A DNA stretch of 64,000 bases from assembly GCA_000611775.1 (NCBI GenBank), contig KK106987.1:1445506-1509505 (forward strand). Reading direction: 5' to 3'. The DNA is from Umbilicaria muhlenbergii. Its lineage: Eukaryota; Ascomycota; Lecanoromycetes; Umbilicariales; Umbilicariaceae. A program made the translations under genes and the position numbers. This document shows positions 1 through 64,000 of the stretch, in pieces. The stretch's first letter is position 1. Each line of letters begins with the position of its first letter. The notes beneath the pieces were generated by a model. It was not told where the DNA came from. It ran no database searches and worked only from the letters and a program-made list of their open reading frames with translations.

Positions 1-1584
1 GTCTACTCACTCACCCTTAAGTGAGGAGATAACAGCTTATATAAGAATGTCTATCAAACAACTTAAATGTACAATTCATACTGAACAGTTGAAAGATGAT
101 TTGATATGATGAGTGTGACAGGGATTAACTACCCCTCTTGAGGATAAAAACAACTTGGCTGAGTCAGAAATGATAAATACAGTGACAATACTCCCTGATG
201 TAATGAAACATTGAGAGGAAATTGAGGATGTTGTATATTATGATGATAAGATCTACATTTCACAGAACTCTGCTCTCTGCAATGTGATGATCAGTTGATT
301 TCATGATGATGTCTTTGCAGGTTATTTTGAGAAGTCAAGAATCACAGAATTAATGCAGTAATCTTATGACTGACCTGATGCTGTCAGAGACATATAATGT
401 TACTGTCATAACTGTGTCAAATGTCAAAAGGTGAAGCCAGCTCATCATAAATCATACAGATTATTAAACTCATTGTCAGTCTCAACTGAGTCATGACATA
501 CAGTGACAATGAACTTCATTACAGATTTATCACTGAGCAGCATATATGAAAGTACAACATGAGATTCAATCCTTGTCATAGTTGATAAGTTGATCAAAAT
601 GACTCACTATATTTCAGTACAGAAGACAATGTCAGTTGCTGACTTCATTGAAGTGTTTATTCAAGACATAGTCAAGCATCATGATGTGTCAAAAGTTTTA
701 ATCACAGACAAAGACAAGCTGTTTACATCAGAGCAGTGAATCAGCTTCTGCTTTCATATGTGATGTTGTCATAACATGTCAACAGCTTTTCACCCGCAAA
801 CTGACAGTCAAATGAAGAGGCAGAATCAGTCCCTGAAGATGTATTTACACATATTCATTAATGAGCAGCAAGAGGACTGAGTGAAGCTTTTACCCTGCAC
901 AGAGTTCTCATACAACAACTTCATACATGCTGCTACAGGAAAGAGCCCCTTTCAGTTTAACTTAAGATGAGACCCTCAGATGAGCTTAAGTAAGCTGTTT
1001 ATACAACACTCACATGAACAAATAAGACTCTATGCAGATGCACAGCAGCTTCAAGATTAAATTACAACAACTCAAGAGCAGCTATGACAGGTTAATGAAA
1101 TATATGTAAACTATTATAATCAGCGCTGAATGAAGATAATGTTCAAAGAAGGTGATTTAGTACTGATCAATGAAAAGAATGTGTCAGTGAACAAGCAGAT
1201 GAAGAAACTGCATTGAAAAAAGCTCAACTCATTCATGATATGATGTGTGATAAGTCAATCATCATATGAACTTAACCTCTCAGAGGATCAAAACATCTAT
1301 AATGTATTTAACATCACTTTATTAAAGTCATTTTAAGACACATGTCATGTGTCCTCTGCATTGACAGGAAAAGACCTACTACTCAACTGAGATGATGAGT
1401 GAGAAGTTAAGGCAATTGTGAATAACTGCATTCATGATGACAGGCTTCAATACCTCATCAAATGAAAGCTGACAGATCAGGTGTGAGATGACACATGAGA
1501 ATCAACACACTTCATTCACAATGCAAAGACAAAAATGTGAAAATTTCATGTTGACAACCCTGACAAACAGAAATCTGAGTGAGC

Positions 1585-1746
1585 CTTAAGATGTGACTCT
1601 TCAAGATTGATTGAGAAGCTGTCACAAAAGTCATGAGCTTTAAGATGTGACTCTTCAAGGTTAATTGAGAAGCTGTCACAAAAGTCATGAGCCTTAAAAT
1701 GTGACTCTTCAAGGTTGATTGAGAAGCTGTTGCAAAAGTCATGAAT
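1585..1746 (+). repeat. three 54-bp tandem repeats after the chromodomain
   Basis: The motif ATGTGACTCTTCAAG recurs at 1591, 1645 and 1699 (one unit has a single difference), a period of exactly 54 bp or 18 codons. The same three-unit array lies at the same place in copy B (63736, 63790, 63844), so it predates both insertions. A 76-residue reverse-strand ORF across it is only a by-product of the repeat. Confidence 0.85.
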
Positions 1747-3546
1747 CTTAAGAATTGAAAACTTTGTCAGCTTTGTTAACTTGATCTCTTATGATGAAAC
1801 CTGTGCTCTACAACAAGTATGACAGAGGCTATAACATTATGATGCTATGACAAGATCTTTAATAAGATTATTGCATGAACTACATTATCACAAACATGTC
1901 ACATTGCAGAGAACACTCAAGCGCAGAAGCATTTCATTTCAAGTTTGAAGATCAAAATGAATCTGAGATCAACATCTTGCACTTGACCTCTCATCAACAT
2001 CATGTTAAGTTATTTTCATTTATCTACTTGTCTTCTGTCATCTTAAACTCTTTTTTATTACTGTTTGATGAAGCCTCTGACCTCATCTCCTCAACACATC
2101 AGCGCTCACAGAGTTTGACGTACTCTTGATGACAACAAGATTAATGAGTGTTGAGGACACAGAGAGCGTGAGCAGTGCTTTTCAGCAAGACAGCAAGAGC
2201 CTGAATGAGCTTCTCAAGACTACTGAATTAACACATTTCAACCTCAAGAGAGTCAAGAAACTCATGTTGAGAAGCAGCTGCAAAGAATGTGAAGAATGTC
2301 AATAATGACTGATAAGAGGTGACAGCATGAGGAATTGATCAATCATCAGATGTTATACAACAATTAGCATATCAATAATACAACAGTGCAACAGTATGAC
2401 AGTATGACAAAATGTTGTATGTATGACAGTATGACAAAATGTCATAAGTATGACAAGTATATCATATTCATATTAAATGAAACAAAATGAAAGAGGATTA
2501 AGAAAAGCAGATTTACAGTGTGCTGTCATCCCTCCTGTCATCATAAGCACATGCGCATAAAACAACAACATCAGAGCTTTCAGAGGCTGAAGCAGTGATG
2601 ATCAGAGGCTTCATCATGCATTAATCATGAGGGTTGTGAAGTGATGTGCAATGAGTGCAGGCTGAATTGACTTGTAATATGAAGCATTGATCAACTTCAG
2701 CTCTTCTGCAAAAGTCACAGTGAACAGTACCTGACAGCATGTGACTGAGATTCTTTTAAATCACATGCTCATGATGATGACTGTGCTGCACGCGCGCCGG
2801 CAGTGAGGTATTATCATGACATCACACAGAGCAGGAACTGCTGTTGAAGACATCATTTAAAGATAAACATCTGACCCTCTTCAGATGTTGAATAGTCAGT
2901 TTTATCACTCTGTTTCCTCATCTCTTTTTGAAGGTGTTGATCATCACAGTTTCATTCATTGACTCTGACTCAGAGCCCTCCTCATCACACTGAGCTCAAA
3001 GATCAACAGGCTTCCTTGATGAAAACAGGTCTTCATCATTATCTGTGATCATGAGTTTAAAAGTTTGAGTATTGATTGCCTATATACCATGTTAGCATTC
3101 ATATGAAGTATGACAGGAAGTATGACATCACAAATGAAGTATGAGCTGCAAGCTTCATGACACTCTCTTCATGAGGTGAACACCTCTGCAATGAGAGATG
3201 ATGTCATGAAGTCATCAGGTCACTCAATGAGCTGTGAAAAAATTATGAGAAGTACAACAACATGTTATAATAAAAATGATGAAGAAGAAACACAAGGGAA
3301 GAGGTGTTTTAAACTTACAGTAAACATTGTGATTTCAATGTTTATATTATGAAGAAAGCTTACTGCTAGCGTGATATCATCACAATTAAGTGAGGCATGT
3401 GATCAACCTTACTTTAGTACAGTTTCACGTGATCACTCTACAAGCTCAACACGCTCACCCTACAACCTCAACTGTTATGACATCATAATGAAGTTTATGA
3501 GTGGTCAGTTGGCTCTGAAGATGGCATCATGAGAAGAGGAATGCTG

Positions 3547-3829: not shown

Positions 3830-6800
3830 TATAAGAACATCTCTTTAAAGTAATGATTACTCTCTGATAATTGATCACTGATCATGAGCAGTCCTTGAAT
3901 GAGACTGACATCATTATAAAGGCACATGAAGAACTATGAGTGAACTATGAAAGAATGAAGAATAAGAACAGAGAATTGAAGAAGAAAGTCATTAAATAAG
4001 CTGATGTGATAACATATCTTGAACAATGAATCACAGTCATTTATACAAGCACCCTCTGACCTGATTTTCCTCAACTCATAATTGAAAAATCATTCAGATT
4101 ATTAAAGCTCTCTGATTCATTAATGTTCTTCAATGATCATTTGAAATATGATGAATGAGTAATGAAGATCAGAAACTACTTACTAACAATGAACAAATAA
4201 TATCTCACTGAGCAGATGAAAATAACATATGTGAAAACAAAAGTTGAGAGTGACTCTGTCAAACACATAAAGCCTCAAATGAATTCAGCATTTTAAACAG
4301 CTTATTTAAATATTATTGAACTGCTAAAACATTTGACTCAGATCTACAGAGACTCAGATTGAAAATGTATCATTACTGATGAATTTTATAAACTTTATTA
4401 AAAATTTAAAGACTTCTCATCCTTCTGAGCTGATTTTTAATAATATGTTACTGAATTGAATGAGTTTCTTAACTTATACTGAATAAGAGAACTTCTGAAC
4501 AAGGTGAATAACATCATTTAATAATAATTAAACATTGACAATGACAGACCTGAAGATCTTTATGAACTCATTAAGTGCTGTCAGTGAATTAATCAGACTT
4601 TATAACTGCTTAATGCAAAGAAGATCATTAAATTTAAATTGAATTAAACATCTCCCTTCACAAGTTAAACTCATACAAGGATTGAACATTTTATTAAAAC
4701 CTCAAAATCAATCATCTGAATGATCACTGAGTCAGTTCCCTGAATACTGAACTGAACATCACACTCAGACGCTGTCAAAGAACAACAGATGAAGAAAAAA
4801 TGATGTTTTAAATACAATGAACAGAGACACCTTGCCTTAAACTGTTTAAACAAGAACAAAAAGAAAGAGACTTCAACATCAAGATGTGTGCAATGAATTA
4901 TATTCAATTTCAATTTCAATTTTAAATTAAACTCAGGAAAAGGCGTTCCTCTATTAAAGTCATGATAAAGAATGATGATAATCTCCTTGTAATATCAATA
5001 TTAATGATTAATGAAGATATTCTATTCACTTGAACATCATTCAAAGTGAATTGCAAGCTCACTCTGAATGAGGTTAAGCTATGAGTCAGAGTCTTACTTG
5101 ATACTGAGTCAATTGAATATGCATTCATTAATGTTAACCTGGCAAAGACTCTGATTGAATGATTTAAAATTAAAGCAGTATCACTGTTAAAGCCCTGAAC
5201 TTTACATGATTTTCAGAAAAAGACAGTGAGATGAGTTACACATGTGATTTATTCAATTATGAAGGTCTGTGATCATTCTCAGTGACTCATTCTCATGATG
5301 ATTGTAAACATGAAAGATCTTGAAATTATACTAAGACTCTTTTGAATGAATCACACTCAGATTTTAATTAACCCTGCAAACCAGGTAGTGATTTTTTCAC
5401 TGAATGAATGAACTGAACTGAACAACTGAAAACTGAATGAATGAACTGAACTGAATGAATAAACTGAACTAAACAACTAAACTGAACTGAATAACTGAAC
5501 ACTGAATGAATGAATAGATCAAATGATTGAATTTAAATTAAATAATTGAATTGAACTCCTGAAACCTTATCAGATCTTGAAAAAATTCATCATAAAAGCA
5601 GATCCTGAATCAGCCTCTGCATCAAAGAGTAATAACCCCTCACATGCAGTCAATATCAAGATGATTGACGCAGCATCATTCATATTGAATATGAAGAAAG
5701 GCAATGAGATCTTTGTTATCTTTATTTAACAAATTGAGGAAGCATTGAACTCTGAATTAAAGTTAAGTGAATTAAATATCAAGATGATTTTTCCTTCTGA
5801 ATATCATGATCTGATTGATGTTTTTTTTAAAAAGACTGCAAATGAACTCCCTTCACATCAACTCTATGATCACAAGATTGTCTTGAAGGATGAGCAAAAG
5901 TTAAAATACACACCTCTTTATAATATGTCACATGAAGAACTGATAGCAGTGAAGAACTACATAGAAGAGAACTTGCAAAAGAATTTTATTAAAGTCAGTT
6001 AATCATCAGTAACCTCACTGATTCTGTTTATACAAAAGAAAGATGAGTCTTTATGACTGTGCATTAATTATCAAAAGCTGAATTCAATTATGAAGAAAGA
6101 CTGATATTCATTACCTTTGATTAAGAAAATCCTGACTCAGATTTTAAAGACAAAATACTTCATCAAGATTAATATACAACAGGCATTTCATCACATATGA
6201 ATAAATCTTGAATCTGAAGACCTGACAATCTTTCAAACAAGGCATGATTTTTACAAATATAAGATCTTGCCTTTTAAACTCATCAACAGATCAATCATCT
6301 TTCAGCACTTTATTAATGATGTTTTATTCAACTTATTGAACACATGCTGTACAACATATTTGAATAATATCTTGATCTATTCAGAGTCTCTGTCTGAACA
6401 TCAAACTCATGTTTGAATCATTCTAAAATGACTGAGAAAGGCAAATTTACAGACTGAAATCAAGAAGTGTGAATTTCACAAGACTGAAACTTAATACTTA
6501 AAATTAATCATAAGACATCATGACATCTGAGTGAACTTTAAAAAGATCACAGTCATTAAAACTTGAGAAATATCAATCAACTTAAAACAGCTGCAGGCAT
6601 TCTTAAGTTTTTGTAACTTTTACTGATGATTCATAAAGGGATATTCTAAAATCACAAAGCCTTTAATCAGACTGATGAGCAAGAACATACTCTTTAATAT
6701 GTAAATTAAATAATGTTTTCAAGCCTTTAATGAACTAAAGAACTGATTGATTAACATGTTAATATTACAATGCTTTGACTGAACTTGAACATATTATCTT

Positions 6801-9162
6801 AAATGTGATTCATCTGATTTGATATTCACAGGAGTACTATCTCAGAAAGATAATTAAAAGTTAATGCATTCAATGACATTTTTCTTTAAGAAACTCATAT
6901 CAGCTAAATGCAATTATGAGATCTATGACAAAGAATTATTAATCATTATTTGAAGTCTCAAAGAATAACGTGCTGAACTAACAGAAACAAAGAATTCAAT
7001 TTAAATTTTAACAGATTATAAAGATCTGAAGTATTTTATGATGATCAAGAAATTGACTCATAAACAAGTCAGATGAGCTGAATTTCTCTTATAATTCAAC
7101 TTTGTGATCACTTATCAAACAGGCAAGGAAAATGAAAAGGTGAATGCATTCATTAAACACTCAAGTGATCAACTAAAGAAGAATGAAGATGATGAGTGAT
7201 TATGATATCAATTTTAAATCATGCTACTAAGTCACTGCTTAAACTCATGCATTATTGCTGAACAAAAGAAAAAAGCTTCTCATCTTTTAAAATCAGCTCT
7301 GAATGAATCAGCTGAACAGGTCTTGAATAAAACTTTAAATGAGTTGATTATCTGTTATGTGAAAGCAGATGATTTCTGTCAGGAAATTCTAAGTTTATTA
7401 CAAATTAAAGCAAGACATTCAATAAAAATCTCTCTCAGTGACTGCATTGAGGACACAGGCTAACTGCTTTATTAAAAACATGTATAAGTCTCAAGTATTA
7501 ATAATGATCTGAATCAGAATGAATTACAATAATAATTAATTCAAGAAGCTCATGAACAGCTGACAGTAAAATATATTAAACATTAAAAGACTCTGAAACT
7601 GCTTGCACACTTCTACTACTAACTCTGAATGAACTGAACAATAAGTCAGTTTGTTCAAAATTGCCACATCTGCCACTAAACAAAGAACATAAATAAGTAG
7701 TATCAAGAAGCCCTGAAATCACTTTTAATTTCAAGTCATTCATGACAAGATATTTCACTCAACTTGATTATCAAATTACTTGAAAGTGAAGGATTCAACA
7801 CAATCTTGATAATCATTTGCAGATTAATTAAAGAGAGACATTATATCTCTTGCTCAACAGATAAAGAAGAAGAAACATTAACTGAATACATTATTAAACT
7901 TTTACTTCACAATGTATGAAGATTTCATAAATTATCACAGACAATTACATCAGACTGAGGATCACAATTTGTAGCATTACTGTGAAAACACTTATGTGAA
8001 CAACTCTGAATCAGATTAAAACCTTCAATCACTTTTCATCCTGAGACAGACAGGCAGTCTGAAAATGTAAATGTGAATATTAAACATTATCTTAAAGCAT
8101 TTGTGAACTATCAGCAAGATGACTGAGTTAAATGATTATCAATGATTGAGTTTACAGCCAACAATGCAGATTCTGACTTTATCAAAGTTTCATCATTCTT
8201 TGCAAATAAAGGATATCACTCTTGAATGAGTTTTAACTTTAAACAGTTGATCACCTCACCTCTGTCAACAAGAGAATGAATTCTAAAGAAAAAAGCTGAT
8301 TTCATAACAAATCATATGAAAGCTCTACATGTGATGTTACAAGAGAACATGACAGCAGCACAACTTCAGCAGAAAGATTTTACAAACTGAACTTGAACAT
8401 TAACCTCAATATATCAAGTAAGAGATTTGATATGATTGTCAACAAAGAATATTTAAATGACTCATTCATTCAAAAAGCTGAATCACAAGAATGAAGGACC
8501 TTTTTGAATTAAGAAGAAAATATCAACTTAAACATATGAGCTTAAATTACTTAAGTTAATGAAAATACACTCTGTATTTCACATCTCTTTATTACAACTC
8601 ACTGTGAATGATTTTTTATTTAAATAAATTGAGTCATCACCGCCACCTGTAATAACTGAACAGGCTGAATCAGAATAAGAAGTTGAACAAATTAATGATA
8701 ACTGTTGATGAAGAAACAGACTACAGTACAAAGTGACATGAAAAAAATACTCACTTGACAAGACCTGATATAACACTGATGAATTTAAACACTCACCTGA
8801 ACTGAAAGAGGTATTTCATGAAAGGTACTTAAACAAGCTGACTGAATCATCAAATACATCAACAACAAAGCAGAAAAGTGAATGATCAGCTTATGAAGCT
8901 CATTAAATAAAAAGAGGAGTAATGTCAGATTTACAAACTGAATGTTGTACTGAACTGAACTTTGTTACTGAACTGAACTTTGTTACTGAACTGAATGACT
9001 GAATGATTTAGCAGTGATTAGACTAGTGAGTTTAGTGCACATAAAGGTTTTAACTTTTGTGCTCTTTCCTCCTTTTGCTTCTTAAACTAAAATTCTTCTC
9101 TGTAGCTAAATGCCAGCTGTTAAAACATATACATTAATTCATAATCTGCATAGTCCTGACAA
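3830..9162 (+). mobile_element. Ty3/Gypsy element Gy2, copy 1
   Basis: This copy aligns to five other Gy2 copies in the window. Its left end is cut by the Gy1 LTR within the gag coiled-coil region. Order of parts: gag (to about 4700) with a CCHC-like knuckle near 4801-4860, protease (about 4930-5350), a TGAA-rich linker (5395-5540), reverse transcriptase (about 5740-6600), RNase H (about 6800-7180), a Leu-Asn-Glu-Ser repeat linker (about 7288-7340), integrase (about 7500-8500), a chromodomain-like tail and the 3' LTR. The short open stretch at 5745-6002 contains the RT N-terminal motif PLYNMSHEELIAVKNY. It is a broken fossil with dozens of changes. Uninterrupted Gy2 copies would be close to 5.95 kb, judged from copies 2 and 5 after subtracting their insertions. 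Confidence 0.85.
8923..9162 (+). repeat. Gy2 3' LTR (copy 1)
   Basis: It begins TGTCAG and ends CCTGACA. The sequence CTTCTCTGTAGCTAAATG and the ACTGAACTGAA repeats are shared with the other Gy2 LTRs. It carries a short tandem repeat of ACTGAACTTTGTT-type units that makes it about 20 bp longer than the copy 2 LTRs. Confidence 0.85.
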
Positions 9163-9810: not shown

Positions 9811-10082
9811 GCCCTCGTTCCCGACGCTATTCGCATCTCTCCTCTCTTTGTCTCAACACCTGATTTTGTATGTCACCGCAATTATGACGCATTTGTCCGT
9901 CCGGTTTCCCTCTTTCGGTGCATACCATCATACAGCTCCTCTTTCTTTGCATCACCACCACACAGGGACTCATCCACCGTATGCTGCAATCTCAGTACCT
10001 GGAACGGACGATCGTGAGCTGGTCACCCGTCACCCACGACTGTCAAAGATCCCTCCCCGGACCATTTTTCGCTTCCACCACG

Positions 10083-12411
10083 ATGCAAGGTGATCCCAAC
10101 CAAGCAGATTCCAAAAGGCCAGGTCCCGACAGAAATGCCACTTCGACCGAGGCAATTGTGCGCGAGATGGAAATGGTGGCCAAGCGCTTTGAAGAAACCT
10201 CCTCCCCGTTGAGGCCGGCGAGAATCCTTCCACCCGGAGCGGCAGCGAGAGCACGAAACACACACGCTCCGCCTCCCCTTGCTGTCCCGGCGACACACGA
10301 TACCCATGCCACATCCAAAGCACATCGGGGTCGGCCACGGACTGTGAAAGAAGGTCCACCAAAGGAAGCTTCAGACGTGGCACAAGGCGCAGTCAATGCG
10401 CTCAATACGTACTCAACACCGCCCTCCACCGCTCCTGAGAATCGTGGTCGGACGTCTTCGACAGCATCAGCAGGTTTGTCGAGTGGAGGATCACAGTCCA
10501 GGCTCAGTGCATCCAAGTCAATTCCGGTTGCTCCGACGAGCCCAGAGGAAGCTGATCCAGCAGAGCTGGACAACAACCGGATCACATCAGGGAGACGCTC
10601 GAAGTTCGACGACGAAGATGGAGACAGCGACGTATGTCCGGCGCTTGAGTCACGTTTGTCATGTACACGCGCTGACATTTTCCTAGGTGGTGGACTCCTG
10701 GGACGCCGCTGAAGACTCGGAGGTCGAAGCGGAGAAGGCCAGGGAGGCTGCAGAGGCAAGGGCCAAGAAGGCTGCAGAGGCAAATTCGAAAGCAGACAGA
10801 CATTCAACAGTTCAGCCTGAGACGGTCGGCGCAGCTGAATTCAACTACACCCCCCGAACACGTCGGGCGGCCTTGCCGGAAATGAGAGAAACGGGTGCGA
10901 CTCCTCGAGCTGTCATTGCAAAACTGGGAGAAGTGGTGGCGACTCCACTTGCACATGCGGCAGCTTCCATAGACAACTCAAGTACAGTCACAAATCAAGA
11001 TACTATATCCTCCACCAGAAGCTCTCAATCATACTTGTCGGATGAGCCTTTCACGGAACAGCCTTCAGCGGATCGAAATCTTGCATATGTTTCCCATCAC
11101 ACCATCTTGCCACGCCTGCCGATCGCCTCTTGGACCGATAACAGGGTATTCAACATCATCAAAAACCAAAGCATCGGCATGTTTAATGAAGCCAGCAAGT
11201 CCGCAAACCTTCCCATATCCATATCAGCAGCATCAGACTCTTCGGCATCGTCAGATCCATCAGCATCTCCCTTTACAGTTCTCGGCAGTACAGCTCGATA
11301 CCTCATGGACGCATACAGTGTAGTGCTATCCTGGGTGATTCGATACAATTGGCGGCTTGTGCCACTCCTGATACTGACACTATCCTTTCTTCTTTCCTGG
11401 GTCGGCGGCATGACCTACGCGGAGATTGTCAAGCATGCCATCAAGTATTGCATGTGCCGCACATCCATCTTCCAGTCATGGGACTTTTGCACCTCCATCT
11501 TACCCGCACCATCAATCCTTGAACCAGAGATTGATCACCAAGGAGTCGCTCAGCACGCTCTTTCCCTCGTCCACGATTTAGCCATCACATCTGAGCTTTT
11601 CACCATCGCCAAACAACTTGAACAAGCGCATTATAACCTCTACATGTTCAACGTGGAAGCTAACGACTCAGACCTCATCGCCCTCTCGCAAAACTACATC
11701 GAGAACTCCGACATTCTACAAGATGACCTCCAGGATTTTCTTACTAATATCACAGTGACTGTCCAGTGGATAGAGTACCTCACCTCAGAGCTTGCCAACG
11801 ATCTTACTTACACACTCTCAACCCCCACCAGCGAAGCATGGCCGGTCAATGTATGGAGATGGATTTTCTTTAGTGAACAATCAACAGCCGTCAATGTCAC
11901 TGAGCTGCACAGCCTTTATACCAACTATCTGGTGGCCCTCATCGAAACTACCAGTGAGCAGATCACCGCCCACGTTCAAATCAGCAACTCCTTCAAACTC
12001 ATCTACGAAGTCATCCCCCCTCTCACCGCCAAAACCAACAAGGCTCACCTGCAAGTTCAGTCTGCAGTCGAGAAGCGCAAGTATTTCTGGCTGCTGCTGC
12101 AGCGGTTGTACCCGAGCCAAGACCGCAACGAGTTGGACGAGAAGGCTATAAACGTTGAACTCCTGAGGGCGTATCTTGACCAGGCGGCTCCGAAGCTCGG
12201 GGATGCAAGGCAAGGATTGGAGGGGACCAAGAGGACTCTGAAAGCGTTGTTGCAAAGGGCGCTGAAACGCGAGAAGCAGAGGAAAAGGGGGGTGCGATGG
12301 TATTCGAATGTGGATCAGATGTGGAGCCATGTGCAATTCATCCTGCAGGCGCGCACCGGTATCAAGGCTGTCAAGGAAAAGGTTGCGAAGAGGAGGGTGT
12401 CGGCAGTTTAG
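10083..12411 (+). CDS. hypothetical membrane-anchored protein, two exons
   Basis: Exons 10083-10631 and 10687-12411 join in frame (183 + 574 codons, 757 residues). The ATG at 10083 has A at -3 (CCACGATG). An in-frame ATG at 9981 is possible; the GTG that opens the frame at 9918 is unlikely to be used. Residues 1-183 are Pro/Ser/Ala-rich and look disordered, ending in an acidic stretch (FDDEDGDSD) that continues across the junction (SWDAAEDSEVEAEKAREAAE). An Ala/Lys/Glu-rich helix, then Ser/Thr-rich sequence, leads to one strong hydrophobic segment at about residues 408-424 (LVPLLILTLSFLLSW). The C-terminal third is long, helical and ends strongly basic. I recognise no family, so its function is unknown; a single-pass membrane protein is inferred. 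GC content and CpG are normal, unlike the repeats around it. Confidence 0.75.
10632..10686 (+). other. spliceosomal intron, 55 bp
   Basis: The donor is GTATGT at 10632, a CTGAC branch site lies at 10672-10676, and the acceptor is TCCTAG ending at 10686. Length and signals are typical of filamentous ascomycetes. Removing it joins two phase-0 exons, and the acidic low-complexity composition continues smoothly across the junction. If it were retained, the first reading frame would end shortly afterwards, at 10712. Confidence 0.85.
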
Positions 12412-13026
12412 CTGTTGGCAACACGGTGCACGGGTGGCTGAAGCAGTGGGAATGGTCGGAGTGTAAATGCGTCCGACCTTGGTGTTGAACTGGCTTATGA
12501 AATTCCACCTCTTGCCGGTGGTATGCCGTGGAATTGGCGTCACCATTGTTGTGTGTTTGTGGCATTTGAACTCACTTGATCAGAGAGGTCATTGCTGAGT
12601 AGGTCATTGTTAAGTAGTAGAAGATTATATAAGACCATGTAACACCTTACCACCACTCCAGCCTCAGTCAGCCTCGCACGGCAGATGGACACGTCTATGC
12701 TGCCATCTGGGCTTACACTGCTGGGCGGCCCTCAGCAAGGGTGAAGAGCGGGGACCTGGTTGCCTGCTGTGCAGGTGCACATCACCGCCGCTCATCATCA
12801 CTGCTTTGGCTCACGGAACTCTGCCAGCATAGGAGACAGATGCACGCCTCAATCCAATGAGAATGGCAGACTACCACGCCATGAGCATGCTGCTCTCGAC
12901 TCTCAATGTCATCATGATACCGCCACATTGTCTTCCCTTCCTGCGGGGGCGACCTTGCGTGATCAGTAGCCGGCATTCCAGTGGTTTCTTTGTTTGCCTC
13001 AGTCAAGCATATCCTCCTCTTTGCCG
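12412..13026. other. intergenic region downstream of the 757-residue gene
   Basis: There is no convincing gene. Short open stretches (for example 12760-12969) start at non-ATG codons and show no recognisable features. The sequence AGGTCATTG occurs twice (12587-12612). A TATATAA box lies at 12626-12632. The first gene's 3' UTR and a promoter for a downstream gene may both be here. Confidence 0.4.
12626..12632 (+). promoter_or_regulatory. possible TATA box
   Basis: TATATAA stands alone in a GC-balanced stretch about 400 bp before the first ATG of the downstream low-complexity ORF. No transcript start can be seen from sequence, so this is weak. Confidence 0.2.
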
Positions 13027-13686
13027 ATGACCAGACATCCTGATCAGCATCTTCATGTTCATGTCCTCCACGTTTCAGTGAGAGCACCACGTTCGCAAGC
13101 TCTTCCTTCACCCTCAGCCCGCGCAGAGCCCTTGCTCATAAGATACATGTCCCGCAGTGAAGAGTGGGAGGAGGATATGGCGGGGAAAGAAGAAGAAGAA
13201 GAAGGAGAAGAAGAAGAAGGAGAAGAAGAAGGAGAAGAAGAAGAAGATGAAGGAGGGAAGAGAAGGATGAGGAGAGCAGGGGTATACAGTCTCAGAGCGC
13301 TGCATGCGGCGCAAGCAGAGGGACACGGAGAGTATGAAGGGAATTGTGCTACACAGCATCTATACCAGAGAGCCGGAGTATCCTCACTCTCACCGCCATC
13401 ACCACCGCCCTCACCATCACCATCACCATCAGCTTCCCCTCGCTCGCCCGCCATATCAGCCCGTCGCCATCTGATCACCACGCAGCGATCACCCCCATCC
13501 AGCCAAAGCACAGACAGAAACCACCCCCCTCATCCCCACCACAGAACCCCGCGACCACCTCAGTGCCTGCGTCGCTCAAACCCCCCATCCAGTCCATCAT
13601 CTCCTTCCTTCCACCTATCTTGCCAACGTTCTCCCTCCTCCAACCTCCCCAACAGAGCCGGACGGACCATCTCGACCGCACCATGA
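13027..13686 (+). CDS. low-complexity ORF, doubtful gene
   Basis: The frame is open for 219 residues from an ATG at 13027. An internal ATG at 13148 (MSRSEEWEEDM) begins a highly acidic Glu/Gly run encoded by GAA/GAG repeats, followed by a Ser/Pro-rich tail encoded by CACCAT and CCT-type repeats. No domain is visible. Several overlapping frames on both strands are also open here because the sequence is repetitive and GC-rich, so openness is weak evidence. It may be part of a larger spliced gene running towards the assembly gap, or not a gene at all. Confidence 0.2.
   Translation: MTRHPDQHLHVHVLHVSVRAPRSQALPSPSARAEPLLIRYMSRSEEWEEDMAGKEEEEEGEEEEGEEEGEEEEDEGGKRRMRRAGVYSLRALHAAQAEGHGEYEGNCATQHLYQRAGVSSLSPPSPPPSPSPSPSASPRSPAISARRHLITTQRSPPSSQSTDRNHPPHPHHRTPRPPQCLRRSNPPSSPSSPSFHLSCQRSPSSNLPNRAGRTISTAP
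13187..13252. repeat. GAA/GGA purine microsatellite
   Basis: This is a pure purine run of GAA and GGA triplets (AAGAAGAAGAAGGAG and similar) on the plus strand, of a kind prone to triplex formation and length change. Confidence 0.9.
13390..13431. repeat. CACCAT/CACCGC repeat
   Basis: Short CACCAT and CACCGCC units are repeated in tandem (CACCATCACCATCACCATC near its right end). It gives Ser/Pro, His/His or Thr/Ile runs depending on frame. Confidence 0.8.
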
Positions 13687-13741
13687 CCGTCACACTCTCT
13701 CGCTCATACACAGCGACTGCCCGAGCGTCAAGACGTCAGAC

Positions 13742-14064
13742 ATGCTCTCCGCAATCTCCATCGCGTGTCAGGAATGCATGCAGGTTGGCGCCTCCGTCCA
13801 GCAATACTTGTACAAGCTCGCTCAATGGATTCCCCAACCTCTGCACTCTCTTCTGTCTGCGTAGACACCCACGACATACTCACCCCCCCTCGCTCGATGG
13901 ATCCCACAACCTCCGCACTCTCTTCTGTCTGCATACACACTCAAGACCCACTCACCCCCCCTCACCCACCCGCACCCCCCGGGAAACCCTCCATCTCCCG
14001 CCCCTCCCTCTCCTCCCGTTCGCGCGCCCCCCTCCTCAACCCCGCCCTCCTCGCCCTCCCCCCC
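13742..14064 (+). other. 72-bp tandem duplication and possible coding fragment next to the gap
   Basis: CTCGCTCAATGG at 13817 and CTCGCTCGATGG at 13889 begin two 72-bp units (24 codons) sharing CACTCTCTTCTGTCTGC. In the frame of the ATG at 13742 the peptide MLSAISIACQECMQVG leads into LAQWIPQPLHSLLSA, and the second unit gives LARWIPQPPHSLLSA. This reads more like real protein than the other two frames, but the frame is not open throughout. It could be an exon fragment or a decayed gene. After 13950 the sequence is C-rich up to the gap. Confidence 0.3.
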
Positions 14065-15435: not shown

Positions 15436-18400
15436 CAACACAAAAACTCAGAAATTAGTCATGATGATTAAAGAAACTGATAATGAAGTTTACTCATGAA
15501 TTAAAAAGTCTTTATTGACTTTTGTGAATAATGAACAATTTACTTTAAATGAAAATCTGATCAATCAGATCCTGACAGCTTTGACTGCAGAGACTTTAAT
15601 TAATCTTTTATAAAAACATCTCTCTGAAGCAATAACTGCTCTTTAATAATTAATAATTAATCATGAGCAGTCCTTGATTGAAATTGACATCATTATAAAG
15701 GCACATGAAGAACTACAAGCAGATTATGAAAAAATAAAGAATAAGAACAAGAAATTAAAAAAAAGTCATTAAACAAGTTGATGTGATAATATATCTTGAA
15801 TAAAGAATCACAGTCACCTTTACAAGCACCCTCTGACTTGATTTCCCTTAACTCACAGTGAAAAAATCATCAAGATTATCAAAGTTCCCTGATTCACTGA
15901 TGTTTTTCAGTGATCATTTGAAGTACAATGAATGAGTAGTGAAGATCAAAAACTACTTATTAACAATGAATGAATAATACTTCACTGAACAGATAAAAAT
16001 AACATATGTGAAAACAAGAGTTAAAGGTGACTCTGCTAAGCACATAAGATCTTGAATAAATTCAGCATCTTGAACAGCTTATTTAAACATCAGTGAACTG
16101 CTAAAACATTTGACTTGAATCTACAGAGATTCAGATTGAAAACATATCATCATTGATGAATTCTGTAAACTTTATTAAGAATTTAAAGACTTCCTGTTCT
16201 TCTGAGTTGATTTTCAGTAATATATTACTGAACTGAATGAGTTTCTTGATTTATATTGAATAGGAGAACTTCTGAACAAGGTTAATAACATCATTCAATG
16301 ATAATTAAACACTGATAATGACAGACCTGAAGATCTTTATGAACTCATCAAGTGCTGTCAGTGAATTAATCAGACCTTATAACTGCTTGACATAAAGAAG
16401 ATTATTAAATCTTAAATAAATCAAACACTCCTCTTCACAAGTTAAATTCATACAAGGATTAAATGTTTCATTAAGACCTCAAAATCAACTACTTGAATGA
16501 TCACTGAGTCAGTGCCCTGAATATTAAACTGAACATCACACTCAGACGCCGTCAAAGAACAACAGATGAAGAAAGAATGATGTTTTAAATATAATAAACA
16601 GAGACACCTTGCCTTAAATTGTTCAAATAAGAATAAAAAGAAAGAGACTTCAGCATCAAGACATATACAATGAATTATATTCAACTCTGATTTTAATTTT
16701 AAATTAAAGTCAGGAAAAGACGTTCCTCTATTAAAGTCATGATAAAAAATGATGTTAATCTTCTTGTGATATCAGCACTGATAATTAATGAAGACATTCT
16801 GTTCACTTGAACACTGTTTAAAGTAAATTGCAAGCTCACTCTGAATGAGGTCAAGTTATAAGTTAAGGCTTTACTTGATACTGAGTCAACTGAATATGCA
16901 TTCATTAATGTTAACTTAACAAAGACTTTGATTGAATGATTTAAAATTGAGGCAGTATCACTGCCAAAGCCCTAAACTCTACATGATTTTCAGAAAAAGA
17001 CAGTGAGATGAGTTACACATGTGATTTATTCAATTATGAAGGTTTGTGATCATTCTCAGTGACTCACCCTCATGATGATTGTAGACATGAAAGATCTCAG
17101 CATTATATTAAGACTCTTTTGAATGAATCATACCTGAATTTTAATTGACTCTGTGAACTGAGTAGTGATTTTCTCACTGAACAACTGAACTGAACTGAAG
17201 AACTGAACACTGAATGAACAAATAAACTTAACAATTGAACCTGAACTAAACAAATAAACTAAACTGAACAACTGAACACTGAACAAATAAATGAATCAAA
17301 TGATTGAACTTGAATCACTGAAAACTTATCAGATCTTAAAGAAATTTATCACAAAAGCAGATTCTGAATCAGCCTCTGCATTAAAAAGTAATAACCTCTC
17401 ACATGCAGTCAATATCAAGATGATTGATGCAGCATTATTCACATTAAATATGAAGGAAGGCAATGAGATCTTTGTTATCTTTATTCAACAGATTAAGGAA
17501 GCATTGAACCTTGAATTAAAATCAAGTGAATTGAATATCAAAGTAATTCTCTCTTTTAAATATCATGATCTGATTGATATTTTTTTTAAAAAGACTGCTA
17601 ATGAGCTTCCTTCATGCTGACTTTATGATCACAAGATTATTCTGAAAAGTGAATGAACTTTAAGATACACTCCTTTATACAACATGTCACATGAAGAACT
17701 GATAGCAGTAAAGAACTACATAGAAGACAACTTGCAAAAGAGTTTCATTAAAGTTAATTAATCATCAGTAACCTCACTGATTCTGTTTATATAAAAGAAA
17801 GATGAGTCTTTATGACTGTGCATCAACTACTGAAAGCTGAATTCAATTATGAAGAAAGACTGATACTCATTATCTTTAATTGAGGAAACCCTGACTCAGA
17901 TTTTAAAGACAAAATACTTCATCAAGATTAATATACAACAGGCATTTCACTGCATATGAATGAATCCTAAATCTGAAGACCTGACAACTTTTTGAACAAG
18001 GCATGATTCTTACAAATATAAGATCTTGCCTTTCAGATTCATTAACAGATCAGTCACTTTTTAACACTTTATTAATGATGTATTATTCAATCTATTGAAC
18101 ACATGCTGTACAACATATTTGAATAATATTCTGATCTATTCAGAGTTCTTATCTGAGCATTAAAGTCATATTCAAACCGTTTTAGAACAACTGAGAAAGG
18201 CAAATTTATAAACTGAAATCAAGAAGTGTGAATTTCACAAGATTAAAACTTAATACTTAAAACTGATCATAAAATATCATGACATTTAAGTGAATCTTGA
18301 AAAAATCACAGTCATTAAGACATGAGAGGTATCAATTAACTTAAAACAGCTACAAGCGTTCTTAAAGTTTTACAACTTTTATCAGTGATTCATAAAGGAA

Positions 18401-19769
18401 TATTCTAAAATCACAAAGCCTTTAATCAGATTAACAGGTAAAAACATATTCTTTAATATGCAAACTGAACAATGCCTTCAAGCCTTCAAGGAACTGAAGA
18501 ATCAATTGACACAGATGTTAATATTAAGACACTTTAACTGAACTTGAACATGTTACCTTGAATGTGACTCCTCAGATCTGATATCAGTGAGTGTCTTATC
18601 TTAAAAAGATGATCAAGAACTACTGTATCCTGTAGCATTTTTTTTAAAGAAGCTTATATCAGCTGAATGCAATTACAAGATTCATGACAAAGAATTGTTG
18701 ATCATCATTTAAAGTTTAAAGAAATGATGTGCTGAATTAACAGGAACAGAGGATCTGATTTAAATTTTAACAGATTATAAAGCCTTGAAGTACTTTATGA
18801 CAATCAAGAAACTAACTCACAGACAAGTCAAATGAACTGAATTTCTTTTATAATTCAACTTTGTAATCACTTGCTGAACAGGCAAGGAAAATGAAAAGGC
18901 AGATGCATTCACTAAATGCTTAAGTAATTAATTAAAGAAGAATGAGAATGATGAGTGATTATAATATTAATCTTAAATCATGCTACTGAGTCACTGTTTA
19001 AACTCATGCATTAATATTGAACAAAAGGAAAAAGCTCCTCATCTTTTAAATTCAACCCTGAATGAATCAACTGAACAAGCTTTGAATAAAACTTTAAATG
19101 AGTTGATTATCTGTTATGTGAAAGCAGATGATTTCTGCCAGGAAATTTTAAACCTATTATGAATCAAAGCAAGACATTCAACAAAGATTTCTCTCAATGA
19201 CTGCACTAAGGACACAGGCTGACTGCTTTATTAAAAACATGTATGAGTCTCAAGCATTAATAATGATCTGAATCAGAACAAATTATGATGATGATTAATT
19301 CAAGAAGCTCATGAACAGCTGACAGTAAAACATATTAAACACTGAAAAACTCTGAAACTGCTTGCATGCTTCTACTACTAACTCTGAATGAACTGAACAA
19401 TAAGTTAATTTGTTCAAAATTGCCACATCTGCCGCTGAACAAAGAATATGAATGAGCAGTATCAAGAAGCTCTGAAATCACTTTTAATTTCAAGTTATTC
19501 ATGACAAGATATTTCACTCAACTTGATTACTGAGTTACTTGAAAGTGAAGAATTCAACATAATCCTGACAGTCATTTGCAAATTAATCAAGAAGAGACAT
19601 TATATTCCTTGTTCAACAGATAAGAATGAGGAAACATTAACAAAATACATTATAAAATTATTACTTCACAATGTATGAAGATTTCATGAGTTATCACAAA
19701 CAATAACATCAAACTGCAGGTCACAATTTATCACAGCACTGTGAAAACACCTGTGTAAATAACTTTGAA

Positions 19770-20889
19770 CATCAGCAATTTAGCAAGTTAGCTCTGAGCT
19801 AGTTTTTAGCACTTTGAGCGCTCTGAGCTTCTGATCTCATGTCTCAGCTAACAGCCGCTCTTAGCACCCTTTGAGCGCTTTGAGCTCAACCTTAAATCTT
19901 GAGCGGAACATCAAAATTTTGTGATAAAAAAACAGTTATTAAAACAATTGTTTAAACAAGTACACACACAGTGTTATAATAACAGTAAAACTTATAATAA
20001 GTAAACTTTTGCTAAAATTCACTTTTCTGCAATAAAAAATCATGATTTGTTGAGTCTGAAAGCACTGTATAAGTGTTGAGTTCTGAACATTTAAAGAACT
20101 TCAAGATTTTCATCACTTAAAAATCTACACACTTTAATAACTTTTGCACCTCAACAGATACGAAGAAACTTTCAATGCACAAGTTATAAAGAACAGTATT
20201 CTCTATTAATGTAAAACTAAAAGTTTCTTCATAACTGCTGTTGTTCTTAAGTTATATTTAATTCAAGTTTTCAACAGCGAAAAATCTTTCAAAAAAAGTC
20301 ACATACTTTGAATAACTATTGCGCTTTTATACTTATAATATAACTTTCAGTTTATAAGGTGTAGAGAATAAGCTGTTTAAGAGTTTTCTGATACAAAGTT
20401 TCTTTTTATGTGTTGTTGTTATTGAGTTATTCAAAAAGTCATTAAAAATCTGTTTATTAATGTTGTAATTTTCATCACTGAAAGTTTGAAATCAATATAA
20501 CTTTTTAACAACAACAGTTATAAAAAAACTTCAAGTTATAAAACTGTTTAATAGCTTCTTCTCTACAACTTATAAACTGAAAATTATATCATAAGTATAA
20601 AAGCGCAATAGTTATTCAATATGCTAATATATTTATAATTAGTTAAAAGTTTTTTAATTCATAACTATTGCAAATTAAAACTTATAAAGAAATCTTTAGT
20701 TTGTAAAGTGTACAGAATAAAGAGATCTAAAACTTTTCAATAAAAAGTTTTTTATTATTCATAAAGGTATAATAGTTATTTAAAGTGTAAGATTTGTATG
20801 AGCTCATTTACTGCTCAGAGAGTGCTCTGAGCGCATAAAGTACTATTAACTAAAACCTTATTTTTGAGCGGGCTGCCAAGTTGCGGATG
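19770..20889. mobile_element. 1.1-kb non-autonomous element with terminal inverted repeats, copy 1
   Basis: It interrupts the Gy2 copy 2 integrase region. The outer ends are imperfect inverted repeats: the left begins CATCAGCAATTTAGCA, and the right end read in reverse begins CATCCGCAACTTGGCA, 13 of 16 matching. The first and last 120 bp are rich in GAGC/GCTC words (GAGCGCTCTGAGC, GCTCTGAGCGC), resembling the subterminal repeats that transposases of some DNA transposons bind. The interior is AT-rich, non-coding and modular (see the hairpin entry). Unlike its host element it keeps many CpGs, so it is younger or too short to be mutated. The flanks share only a couple of bases (GAA before, AATC after), so the target-duplication size is unclear and the superfamily is unassigned. 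Confidence 0.7.
20131..20722. repeat. modular inverted and direct repeats inside the 1.1-kb element
   Basis: Positions 20311-20390 and 20541-20618 are inverted copies; the left arm holds GAATAACTATTGCGC and TGTAGAGAATAAGC, and the right arm holds their reverse. Diverged direct units with the order AACTWTTGC, then AACTTTCAG-like, then GTRNAGAATA-like words occur at about 20131-20207, 20306-20373 and 20656-20722. A second inverted relation links about 20215-20275 with 20490-20560 (both contain AACAACAG-type words). The interior thus looks built from one roughly 65-bp module in both orientations. Confidence 0.65.
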
Positions 20890-21803
20890 AATCAAATTGA
20901 AACCTTCAATCACTTTTCATTCAGAGACAGAAGGGCAGTCTGAAAATGTAAATATAAATATTAAATGCTACCTTAAAGCATTTGTGAATTATCAGCAAGA
21001 TGACTGAGCTAAATAATTATCAATGATTGAATTTACAGCCAACAATGCAGATTCTGACTTCATCAAAGTTTTATCATTTTTTGCAAATAAAGAATATCAC
21101 TTCTGAATAAGTTTTAACTTTAAATGATTAATTACCTCACCTCTGCTGACAAGAGAATAAATTCTGAAGGAAAAAGCTGATTTTATAATAAATCATATGA
21201 AGGTTCTATATGTGATATTACAAGAGAACATGACAGCAGCACAACTTCAACAAGAAGACTTTATAAACAGAATTTAAATGCTGATCTCAACATATCAAGT
21301 AGAAGACCTGATATGATTGTTAATAAAAAATATTCAAATGACTCACTCATTCAAAAAGCTGAATCACAAGAATGAAGGACTTTTTTAAATTAAGAAGAAA
21401 GTATCAACTCAAGTATATAAGCTTGAACTGTCTGAATTAATGAAAATACACTCTGTATTTCACATCTTCTTACTACAACTCACTGTGAATAATTTTTTAC
21501 TTAAGTAAATTGAGTCATCACCGCCACCTGTAATAACTAAACAGGCTGAACTGAAATGAGAAGTTGAACAAATTAATGACAGCTGTTGATGAAGAAAAAA
21601 ATTACAATACAGAGTGACATGAAAAAAATATTCATTTGACAAGACCTGATACAACACTGATGAATTCAAACACTCTCTTGAACTGAAAAAGGCATTTTAT
21701 AAGAGGTACTTAAATAAGCTAATCAAGTCACTGAATACATCAATGATAAAGCAGAAAAGTGAATAATCAACTCATGAAGCTCATTAAATAAAGAAGAGAA
21801 TAA

Positions 21804-22024
21804 TGTCAGGTTTACATTTAAACATTGTACTGAACTGAATATGATACTGAACTGAATGACTGAATGAGTTAACAGTGATTAGATTAATGAGTTTAACATA
21901 CACACAAAGACTTTAACCTTTGCACTTTTTCCTCCTTTTGCTTCTTAAACTAAAATTCTTTTCTGTAGCTAAATGTTAACTGTTAAAACACATATATTAA
22001 TTCATAATCTGCATAGTCCTGACA
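21804..22024 (+). repeat. Gy2 3' LTR (copy 2)
   Basis: It begins TGTCAGG and ends CCTGACA, 221 bp, and is closely similar to the 5' LTR of the same copy with differences that are mainly transitions. Confidence 0.85.
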
Positions 22025-26155: not shown

Positions 26156-26660
26156 TATTCTTGTCACTGTGAACCTGAATGTCTTCAACTGAGTTTATCA
26201 AGTAGTGCAGGAAATCCTGCAGTGAATTGTAACAGGTGATGTCATAGTGATGAGGATAGTACAATCATTCAATGAACTATACCAACATTCATCTAATCAC
26301 GGCGCTTGGTTCAATGAACTACTGGTCACATGTAGACTTGAATAAGCTAGAAGGCAGAAGACCTATGAGATTGCATTTGATACATGAGTTGAGCATGAGC
26401 TCCTAACTATGAATCTACCTGTGATTATATAGTACTTTAGGAGACTCATGTGTGACTGTACTGTTCTACGTGTGTAATCTTACTGCTCAGGGTGCTCATG
26501 CCCTGAGCATCATGAGCGGTAGGGTGCTTGAGGTGCTCATGCTCTGAGCATCATGAGTGATAGGGTGCTCAAGGTGCTCATGCTCTGAGCATCATGAGCG
26601 GTACCACATGTACGCCTGCTACGCGTACCAACCAGGTACCGTCTAGCGGGAGGTGTAACA
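26156..26660. mobile_element. candidate solo LTR, about 505 bp
   Basis: It is flanked on both sides by TGAG (26152-26155 and 26661-26664), a possible 4-bp target duplication. The right end is TGTAACA; the left end reads TATTCTTGTCAC, where TA could be a mutated TG. It keeps CpGs near its right end (TACGCGTACC, CTAGCGGG), unlike the Gy5 sequence around it. No coding capacity and no internal region. An unclassified short insertion is the alternative. Confidence 0.4.
26491..26603. repeat. three 41-bp repeats containing a palindrome-like GCTCATG/CATGAGC core
   Basis: GGTGCTCATGCYCTGAGCAT recurs at 26491, 26532 and 26573, period 41 bp, each followed by CATGAG. Each unit can fold on itself (GCTCATG with CATGAGC). 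One unit carries transition differences from the other two. Confidence 0.85.
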
Positions 26661-41821: not shown

Positions 41822-42737
41822 ACATCAGCAATTTAGCAAGTTAACTCTGAGTTAATTTTTAGCACTTTGAGCGCTCTGAGCTTCTGATCTCATGTCTCAG
41901 CTAACAGCCGCTCTTAGTACCCTCTGAGCGCTTTGAGCTCAACCTTAAATCTTGAGCAGAACATCAAAATTTTGTGATAAAAAAACAATTATTAAAACAA
42001 TTCTTTAAACAAGTACACACACAGTGTTATAATAACAGTAAAACTTATAATAAGTACACTTTTGCTAAAATTCACTTTTCTGCAATAAAAAATCATGATT
42101 TGTTGAGTCTGAAAGCACTGTATAAGTGTTGAGTTCTGAATATTTAAAGAACTTCAAGATTTTCATCACTTAAAAATTTACACACTTTAATAACTTTTGC
42201 ACCTCAACAGATATGAAGAAACTTTCAATGCATAAATTATAAAGAACAGTATTCTCTATTAATGTTAAACTAAAAGTTTCTTCATAACTGCTGTTGTTGT
42301 TAAGTTATATTTAATTCAAGTTTTCAACAGCGAAAAATCTTTCAAAAAAAGTCACATACTTTGAATAACTATTGCGCTTTTATACTTATAATATAACTTT
42401 CAGGTTATAAGTTGTAGAGAATAAGCTGTTTAAGAGTTTTCTTATACAAAGTTTCTTTTTAGGTGTTGTTGTTGTTGAGTTATTCAAAAAGTCATTAAAA
42501 GTCGGTTTATTAATGTTGTGATTTTCATCACTGAAAGTTTAAAATCAATGTAACTTTTTAACAACAACAGTTATAAAAAAACTTCAAGTTATAAAACTGT
42601 TTAATAGCTTCTTCTCTACAACTTATAAACTAAAAGTTAATTTGTATGAGCTCATTTACTGCTCAGAGAGTGCTCTGAGCGCATAAAGTACTATTAACTA
42701 AAACCTTATTTTTGAGCGGGCTGTCAAGTTGCAGATG
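41822..42737. mobile_element. non-autonomous inverted-repeat element, copy 2
   Basis: This is nearly identical to 19770-20889, with few differences, and about 200 bp shorter in the interior between the hairpin right arm and the right subterminal GAGC block. The same ends occur: left CATCAGCAATTTAGCA, right end reversed CATCTGCAACTTGACA. It separates a Copia gag (left) from a Gy2 protease region (right), so its two flanks come from unrelated elements. CpGs are retained in the GAGCG words. Confidence 0.75.
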
Positions 42738-62010: not shown

Positions 62011-63726
62011 ACCTGAGCAGCACTCAATTAAAAATAATGCAGCAAGCACTGTAATTATGAATGATGACACAAGTCATGTTTTTATTAATTTTTAAATTAA
62101 GGATAATGCTCCTTCTGCTGACACTGTTGAAGTGCTTCAGCTCATGTCTACTCACTCACCTCTAGATGAGGAGATAACAGCTTATATAAGAATGTTTATT
62201 AAACAACTTAAATGTATGATTCATACTGAACAGTTGAAAGACGGTTTAATATGATGAATATGACAGGGATTAACTACCCCTCTCAAGGATAAAAACAACT
62301 TGACTGAGTCAGAAATGACAAATATGATGACAATACTCCCTGATGTAATAAAATGTTGAGAGGAAATTGAGGATGTCATATATTATAATGATAAAATTTA
62401 CATTTCACAGAACCCTGCCCTCTGCAATACAGTGATCAGTTGATTTCATGATGATGTCTTTGCAGGTCATTTCAGGAAGTCAAGAATTATAAAATTAATG
62501 CAATGATCTTATGATTGACCTGATGCTGTCAGAGACGTATGATGTTACTGTCATGATTATGTTGAATGTCAAAAGGTGAAGCCAGCTCATCATAAATCAT
62601 ACAGATTATTGAACTCATTATCAGTCTCAGAAGTGTCATGACATACAGTGACAATGAACTTCATTATGAACCTGTCACTGAGCAGCACATATAAAAGTAT
62701 GACATGAGATTCAATCCTTGTTGTAGTCAATAAGTTGATTAAAATGACTCACTATATTTCTGTACAGAAGACAATGTCAGTTGCTGACTTCATTAAAGTG
62801 TTTATTCAGGACATTATGAAGTATCATAATGTGTTAAAAGTTTTAATCACAGACAGAGACAAGTTTTTTACATCAGAGTAATGAATCAACTTCTGCTTTC
62901 ACATGTGATGCTGTCATAACATGTCAACAGCTTTTCACCTGCAAACTGATGATCAAACAGAGAGGCAGAATCAGTCCCTGAAGATGTATTTATACATATT
63001 CATTAATGAGCAGCAAGAGGACTGAGTGAAGCTTTTACTCTGCATGAAGTTCTCATACAACAACTTCATACATGCTGCTACAGGAAAGAGCCCCTTTCAG
63101 CTTAACTTAAAGTGAGACCCTCAGATGAACTTAAGTAAGCTGCTTATACAGCACTCACATGAACAAATAAGACTTTATGCAGATGCACAGCAGCTTCAAG
63201 ATTAAATTACAACAGCTCAAGAGCAGCTATGACAGGTTAACAAAATATATACAAATTATTATAATCAACACTGAACAGAGATAACATTCAAAGAAGGTGA
63301 TTTAATATTGATCAATGAAAAAAATATGTCAGTGAACAAGCAGATGAAGAAACTGCATTAAAAAAAGCTTAACTCATTCAAGGTATGACATGTGATAAAT
63401 TAATCATCATATGAACTTAACCTCTCAGAGGATCAAAATATTTATAACATGTTCAACATCACTTTATTGAAGTTATTTCAAGACACATGTTATGTATCCT
63501 CTGCATTAACAGGAAAAGACCTACTACTCAACTGAGATGATGAGTGAGAAGTTGAGGCAATTGTGAATAATCATGTTCATGACAGCAGACTTCAATACCT
63601 CATTAAATAAAAGCTGACAGATCAGGTGTGAGATGACACATGAGAATTAACACACTTCATCTGCAATGTAAAGATAAAAATGTGAAAATTTCATGCTGAC
63701 AACTCTGACAAATCAAAATTCAGGTG

Positions 63727-63900
63727 AGCTTTAAGATGTGACTTTTCAAGGTTGATTGAGAAGCTGTCACAAAAGTCATGAATCTTAAGATGTGACTCTT
63801 CAAGGTTGATTGAGAAGCTGTTGCAAAAGTCATGAGTCTTAAGATGTGACTCTTCAAGGTTGATTGAGAAGCTGTCACAAAAGTTATGAGCTTTAAGAAT
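63727..63900 (+). repeat. three 54-bp tandem repeats after the chromodomain (copy B)
   Basis: Units start at 63736, 63790 and 63844 with ATGTGACTYTTCAAGG. It has the same number and period as in copy A. Confidence 0.85.
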
Positions 63901-64000
63901 TGAAAACTTTATCAGCTTTGTTAACCTGATCTCTTATGACAGAGTCTGTGCTCTACAATAAGAATATGACAGGGGCTATGATGTTATGATGTTATGATGA

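Follow-up and report, generated by a model that had tools for sequence, protein, structure and literature searches.

A MITE-like family with Plavaka ends, probably of the PlavakaB type, in the genome of Umbilicaria muhlenbergii

Introduction

KDZ and Plavaka elements have been called understudied (PMC8290104). A 2025 survey describes PlavakaB elements by termini of the form 5'-CATCA..TGATG-3' and a target-site duplication (TSD) of 2 or 3 bp (Kojima, 2025, PMC12730594), and PlavakaA elements by the termini TGT..ACA (PMC12730594). The genome paper of Marasmius oreades characterises the terminal inverted repeat (TIR) motif of KDZ/Plavaka elements in its supplement, with methods that extend to non-autonomous elements, and the transposable element library of a later Marasmius study includes unnamed elements of up to ~42 kb (PMC9674265). 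In the paper listings and passages that we searched there was no published ~23-kb helicase-bearing Plavaka, and no published non-autonomous Plavaka family with the ends described below; a relative may have been described in Repbase or in supplementary compilations of Plavaka ends.

Fungal repeats are also shaped by mutation. RIP is described as acting on repeats longer than 400 bp, and in a wheat pathogen its bias was absent from families of short MITEs (PMC4522978). Such hypermutation was undetected in agaricomycete-type basidiomycetes according to the 2025 survey (PMC12730594). Here we describe a 1.1-kb element that, when only its own letters and open reading frames had been considered (the sequence-only reading), could not be assigned to any named superfamily. 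It can now be assigned to a passenger family whose ends and TSD are known to single-base precision and which shares its genome with a large relative.

Results

Borders and target sites

The window, i.e., the whole stretch of 64,000 nucleotides that was analysed, corresponds to positions 1445506-1509505 of contig 7 in a genome of 34.8 Mb and 7 contigs, all of which was searched. The coordinates of the features within it are collected in Table 1. The element begins with CATCAGCAATTTAGCA and finishes with TGCCAAGTTGCGGATG, and these same start and stop bases were identical in eight copies (the one in the window plus seven others) whose flanks are unrelated, the last letters of the right end being mutated in copy L008. 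In the copies compared, no longer element runs past these borders.

Table 1. Features of the element and of related sites, in window coordinates.
Feature	Position	Strand	Basis
Complete non-autonomous element, left to right end, 1,120 bp	19770..20889	+	Borders compared in 8 copies, including the window's own
5' TSD copy, AA	19768..19769		Single AA in 12/12 empty sites cut out
3' TSD copy, AA	20890..20891		Same 12 empty sites
Left terminus, CATCAGCAATTTAGCAA	19770..19786	+	Giant Plavaka 3' terminus: 17/17 with copy B, 13/17 with copy A
Right terminus, read inward, CATCCGCAACTTGGCAGCCCGCTCA	20865..20889	-	Giant Plavaka 5' terminus: 23/25 with copy A, 21/25 with copy B
Left GAGC/GCTC-rich subterminal block, candidate transposase-binding region	19787..19906	+	Aligns with giant 3' subterminus; motif counts
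Right GAGC/GCTC-rich subterminal block	20799..20864	-	Comparison with giant ends; motif counts
Internal inverted-repeat arm 1, 123 nt, 84% complementary to arm 2	20308..20430	+	Self-comparison; shuffle test
Internal inverted-repeat arm 2, 123 nt	20497..20619	-	Self-comparison
Diverged further module copy, 98 nt, 70% to 20312-20409 (family D2)	20661..20758	+	Self-comparison
Second copy in the window, element positions 818-1022 deleted	41823..42737	+	96.6% over 817 bp, 98.0% over 98 bp
Host repeat interrupted by the element	15609..22024		Two parts match 3830-9161, self-BLAST
Empty site of the 19770 insertion in another host-repeat copy, AA once (locus L065)	8009..8010		Joined-flank match
Empty site for family member L004, TA once	26416..26417		Target-site analysis

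When the two flanks of the window copy were joined, they matched across the junction at 40 places, and all 12 of the empty sites that were cut out carry a single AA (three of them, L061-L063, are alike over the stretch compared). The comparison of borders and empty sites that had been proposed earlier fixed the ends and gave a target duplication of 2 bp. A wider view of the target sites came from 32 copies with both borders, found via a search for these termini or for the window copy, one spurious 33rd row having been dropped from the table. An exact 2-bp duplication was present in 17 of them, against 4.0 expected when the flanks were re-paired, and the figure rises to 24 (9.55 expected) if duplications differing only by transitions are included. 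The exact duplications were AA (4), TA (4), TT (3), AT (2), TG (2), and CA (2). The exact TSD was absent from the other 15 copies, 8 of which differ by more than transitions, and none of the 32 had a duplication of 3 bp or more.

Anatomy of the element

No ORF of 40 aa or more is found within the element, and the window gave no Rfam match at the gathering threshold. The TIRs are short (~16 bp) and imperfect, with 13 of 16 positions identical as counted by eye. The motifs GAGC and GCTC together occur 10 times in the left 150 bp, 6 times in the right 150 bp, and not once in the 820-bp interior. The best inverted match of the element to itself scores 145 bits (maximum of 49.1 in 100 dinucleotide shuffles) and the best direct one 43.6 bits (maximum of 30.7 in as many shuffles). 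The picture of a mobile, ORF-less 1.1-kb inverted-repeat element with imperfect TIRs and GAGC-rich blocks at both ends, as drawn in the sequence-only reading, is borne out by these data, and the hairpin of nearly 80 bp that it had pointed to (20311-20390 with 20541-20618) lies inside the two longer arms. The direct and inverted modules that it put at roughly 65 bp do exist in both orientations, but that size was loose: they range from ~35 to 123 nt and are 60-85% alike. It was also right that CpGs are kept here inside a CpG-stripped host repeat, the observed/expected ratio being 0.51 in the element and 0.00-0.27 in the 2-kb bins between 14 and 64 kb of the window.

In the rest of the window, positions 10001-14000 form a gene-like island (49-57% G+C, near-normal CpG) amid AT-rich, CpG-poor repeats, and a direct repeat of ~1.85 kb, 89% identical, lies at both ends of the window (1-1850 and 62146-63997). 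Between 24001 and 31000 there are ~7 kb of 18-22% G+C (37% at 26-27 kb), lower than in the repeats around them. This region was considered as a possible relative of the 1.1-kb element and rejected, as the end scan gave no paired ends there. Within the very AT-rich stretch, at 26484-26603, there are 2.9 copies of a 41-bp tandem repeat that is GAGC/GCTC-rich and contains some CpG.

Copies and structural variants

Scoring of 40 among 312 first-look candidates gave at least 41 places of near-full length, that of the window among them, at 90-100% identity. A pattern for the left end occurs 277 times genome-wide (0 for the reversed-pattern control) and one for the right end, with up to 2 mismatches, 271 times (control, 9). 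The genome therefore holds hundreds of ends, with differing flanks in the copies that were read, and not merely the two copies seen in the window. Among 30 right-end loci that were cut out, 8 align from end to end (L022 and L027 being copies L004 and L007 again), and the remaining 22 have lost their interiors or have internal inversions, duplications, or deletions. Several copies, for example L013, L014, L026, and L034, lack a whole internal arm and keep both ends.

Most of the copies with both borders (30 of 32) have a left and a right end with the same short termini. The left terminus is CATCA in 29 of these 30, in a search that tolerated up to 5 substitutions, and the right one, read inward, is CATCC or CATCT, sharing four of five letters with CATCA; giant copy A (see below) has CATCC at this place. 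Two copies are palindromic by their sequence, namely L011 (right-right, 851 bp) and L041 (left-left, 1,389 bp). Three more inward-facing left-left pairs, 1,387-1,409 bp apart (C2:5233252-5234638, C2:5798096-5799483, and C1:513701-515109), are known from their borders alone. None of these five palindromes has an exact target duplication (one is off by a transition) vs. 17 of the 30 left-right copies. So small a contrast would fit, and does not establish, a pairing of like ends of two copies; the near-equal length of three left-left forms suggests rather that these derive from one another by copying.

Candidates for a helper were sought as well. Three loci whose ends stop matching the 1.1-kb family (L023, L024, and L037, refetched as L039-L041) were rejected: L039 and L040 seem to be broken ends that became fused to another repeat, and the interior of L041 is the left-left palindrome. 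One match of an end pattern that excluded the family and one odd match of the right-end pattern were set aside as chance; both are in gene-like DNA of ~46-58% G+C, with the second end absent within 5 kb.

Giant Plavaka elements with similar ends

The PF18759 (Plavaka) profile gave 11 matches in the genome, corresponding to 10 places since two rows were adjacent, and none in the control genomes. Stops, mostly TGA, interrupt all 11, so that a working helper was not found among them. Six of the 10 places belong to one family at 90.9-94.5% identity (four compared with short flanks, two as 10-kb stretches). Two copies could be delimited by contiguous extension up to the points where their homology stops on both sides: copy A (C5:2581004-2603914, + strand, 22,911 bp, TSD GA) and copy B (C3:542700-565846, - strand, 23,147 bp, TSD TT). 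They are inserted in a related host repeat, and each shows the empty site of the other. Besides the transposase with its stops, copy A has matches to Helicase_C (E 2e-18) and, as a fragment, to DUF6532 (E 3e-8). No domain above the cut-off appeared in the other stretches scanned (six of ten near-open segments, six frames of L042, L046, and L047, and three of L054), nor a TET/JBP domain in the scanned stretches of the C5 copy, which cover part of its frames.

The comparison with autonomous-type transposons of the same genome, which the sequence-only reading had proposed, led to these ~23-kb elements, whose termini match those of the small one (Table 1, identities counted by eye). At the mismatches of the left terminus copy A has TG where copy B has CA, as if both had once had CG, and some of the identity to copy B may therefore derive from decay. 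Beyond the TIR, the left subterminus resembles the giant 3' subterminus (z 5.7, 300 shuffles). The right subterminus beyond 25 bp gave a weak z of 2.4 with the giant 5' end, under the best shuffle, and a higher one, 3.7, with the giant 3' end, so that the terminal 25 bp alone link the right end to the giant 5' end. Since the interiors of the small and giant elements are unlike, the small one did not come about by deletion alone from any giant found here.

Mutation pattern of giants, host repeat, and small family

Copies A and B of the giant differ by 6.7% transitions and 0.18% transversions (1,560 to 41), i.e., ~38 transitions per transversion, and copy A differs from two further copies by 8.3% and 0.34%, and by 8.4% and 0.17%, respectively. 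A pair of host-repeat copies showed 11.6% transitions and 1.47% transversions (~8 per transversion). The small family, with 12 copies and 66 pairs, had 2.3% and 0.87%, only 2.6 transitions per transversion. Left out of these pairs were 3 of the 15 full-length copies (the second copy of L005, L010, and L038), an older subfamily that differs from four others by 3.4-4.8% transitions and 1.5-4.1% transversions. C-to-T change in the giants follows the order CpG > CpC > CpT > CpA and does not favour a preceding T; the same order, weaker, was seen in the small family.

These ratios have to be read with the way in which they were obtained. Counted per cytosine, C/T differences are 12.3% in the giants (1,011 of 8,252 usable sites), 8.2% in the small family (1,575 of 19,197, pooled over the 66 pairs), and 27.7% in the host repeat (318 of 1,147), a smaller gap, so that the contrast comes mostly from transversions, whose rate may vary with composition. 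Selection also biases the set to less mutated copies, since similarity guided the choice of L001-L008 and a perfect right end that of L009-L038. Such selection did not affect the second copy in the window, a copy next to the C3 giant, the L041 palindrome, L061, and L064, which, summed by hand, gave 84 transitions to 24 transversions (~3.5). That sum omits L062 and L063 (whose values equal those of one piece of L061), the L059/L069 repeats of a single place, and a 7:4 arm piece; it becomes 159 to 110 once two comparisons between inverted arms are counted in.

Per transversion, the small family is far less hit by RIP-like C-to-T change than the giants or the host repeat. The sequence-only reading had offered two explanations for the retained CpGs, recent movement or escape from the mutation process, and each holds in part. 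The family does have fewer transversions than the host-repeat pair (0.87% vs. 1.47%), but recency alone is insufficient, since the giants have fewer still (0.18%) and yet more transitions. Escape agrees with 2.6 vs. 38 transitions per transversion, but a full escape was rejected because the family's own CpGs decay: CA or TG stands at 64 of 225 cells of once-CpG sites in the 15 copies. A length threshold is the simplest reason for the milder hypermutation; as 1.1 kb is above 400 bp, the low G+C, a different threshold, or amplification at a different time are alternatives to it. The ~23-kb and ~1-kb elements, which resemble each other at their ends and contrast in mutation pattern, offer a test of whether a RIP-like process has a cut-off in length or composition.

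Discussion

Placement of the family

The element has exact ends, 2-bp target duplications, empty sites, and many copies, and a transposase domain lies between the matching ends of the giants. Contrary to the sequence-only reading, it can thus be placed: the termini, the 2-bp TSD, and ends that match those of transposase-bearing elements point to Plavaka, probably PlavakaB. We consider the element a member of a MITE-like non-autonomous cut-and-paste family with Plavaka ends, probably PlavakaB (a CACTA/EnSpm-like CMCT clade), with a probability of about 0.9. Judged from its termini, it would be PlavakaB rather than PlavakaA. The kind of element is known, and the family itself is probably new.

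Another lineage with a 2-bp TSD (EnSpm/CACTA proper, ESTA, Mirage, or Tc1/mariner) might have acquired Plavaka-like termini by convergence, which we regard as very improbable. Subterminal repeats are found in CACTA elements too. CA..TG termini and TSDs of 2-5 bp are common to most CMCT lineages in the 2025 survey (PMC12730594), but the termini here are CATCA and CATCC, not CAC, and they match the ends of transposase-bearing Plavaka elements of the same genome. EnSpm/CACTA proper has CAC..GTG and a 3-bp TSD, whereas the element has CATC..GATG and 2 bp. The TA duplication of Tc1/mariner, ESTA, and PHISTA occurs in only 4 of the 17 exact duplications, and six kinds among these mean that insertion is not TA-specific. 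Zisupton (KDZ) would give an 8-bp TSD, and nothing above 2 bp was seen in the 32 copies. Neither PF02992 (Transposase_21) nor PF18758 had a match in the genome, but as none of the controls matched either, this is no sign that these domains are absent.

The strong internal inverted repeat, together with the existence of palindromes (right-right L011, left-left L041, and three more left-left by borders), could be taken to indicate a Foldback-like element, in which the inverted modules would be the working ends and the short TIRs incidental. There is an even slimmer chance of this, given that nearly all copies with both borders, in a set found via these termini or the window copy, have the left-right form with the same short termini, that the arms sit hundreds of bases inside the ends, and that several copies (e.g., L013, L014, L026, and L034) dispense with one of them and keep both ends; the long TIRs that serve as working ends in Foldback elements are replaced here by TIRs of ~16 bp. 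That copies are non-coding and number in the hundreds would also suit a static, satellite-like repeat or a segmental-duplication block, an option with next to no probability as it is contradicted by the exact ends, unrelated flanks, 2-bp TSDs, and empty sites.

A possible helper and passenger system

As a Plavaka family, these elements were most likely mobilised in trans by the machinery of a much larger Plavaka. The transposase of the ~23-kb relative would recognise termini of the type CATC(A/C)GCAA... and the GAGC/GCTC subterminal blocks, the latter being candidate binding sites, cut at CATC/GATG, and insert the element into a 2-bp staggered cut, which would leave the 2-bp duplication. The mover may have been the transposase of the giants or a close relative that was not found. 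Faulty gap repair or template switching could have produced the internal deletions, duplications, and inverted modules, and its shortness and AT-richness may be why the family was less hit by the RIP-like process.

A broader view can be put forward tentatively, and we hold it to be rather less probable than its opposite. The ~23-kb Plavaka, with its helicase-like and DUF6532 fragments, and its ~270 short relatives might form one helper and passenger system, in which a RIP-like C-to-T process acting in all contexts, with a cut-off in length or composition, would quickly kill the helper (~38 transitions per transversion) and spare the passengers more (2.6-3.5). The left-left and right-right palindromes without target duplication would be a side product of the transposase pairing like ends of two copies.

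Comparison with described systems

With PlavakaB as described in the survey (PMC12730594) the element shares the left CATCA and the 2-bp TSD, and PF18759 lies between similar ends of giants of the same genome. It differs in that the small element has no transposase and has a right terminus of CATCC or CATCT, and in that the large relative here is ~23 kb long with Helicase_C and a DUF6532 fragment. Like MITEs and non-autonomous CACTA-like elements, the family is short, ORF-less, and present in many copies, with motif-rich subtermini and a series of internal deletions, but it is long for a MITE at 1.1 kb, and the inverted modules and the left-left and right-right palindromes set it apart. The internally repetitive, inverted, and variable structure recalls that reported for the Foldback-like Galileo, an element of the P-element superfamily (PMC3573991), from which it is distinguished by its short working termini and its TSD of 2 bp.
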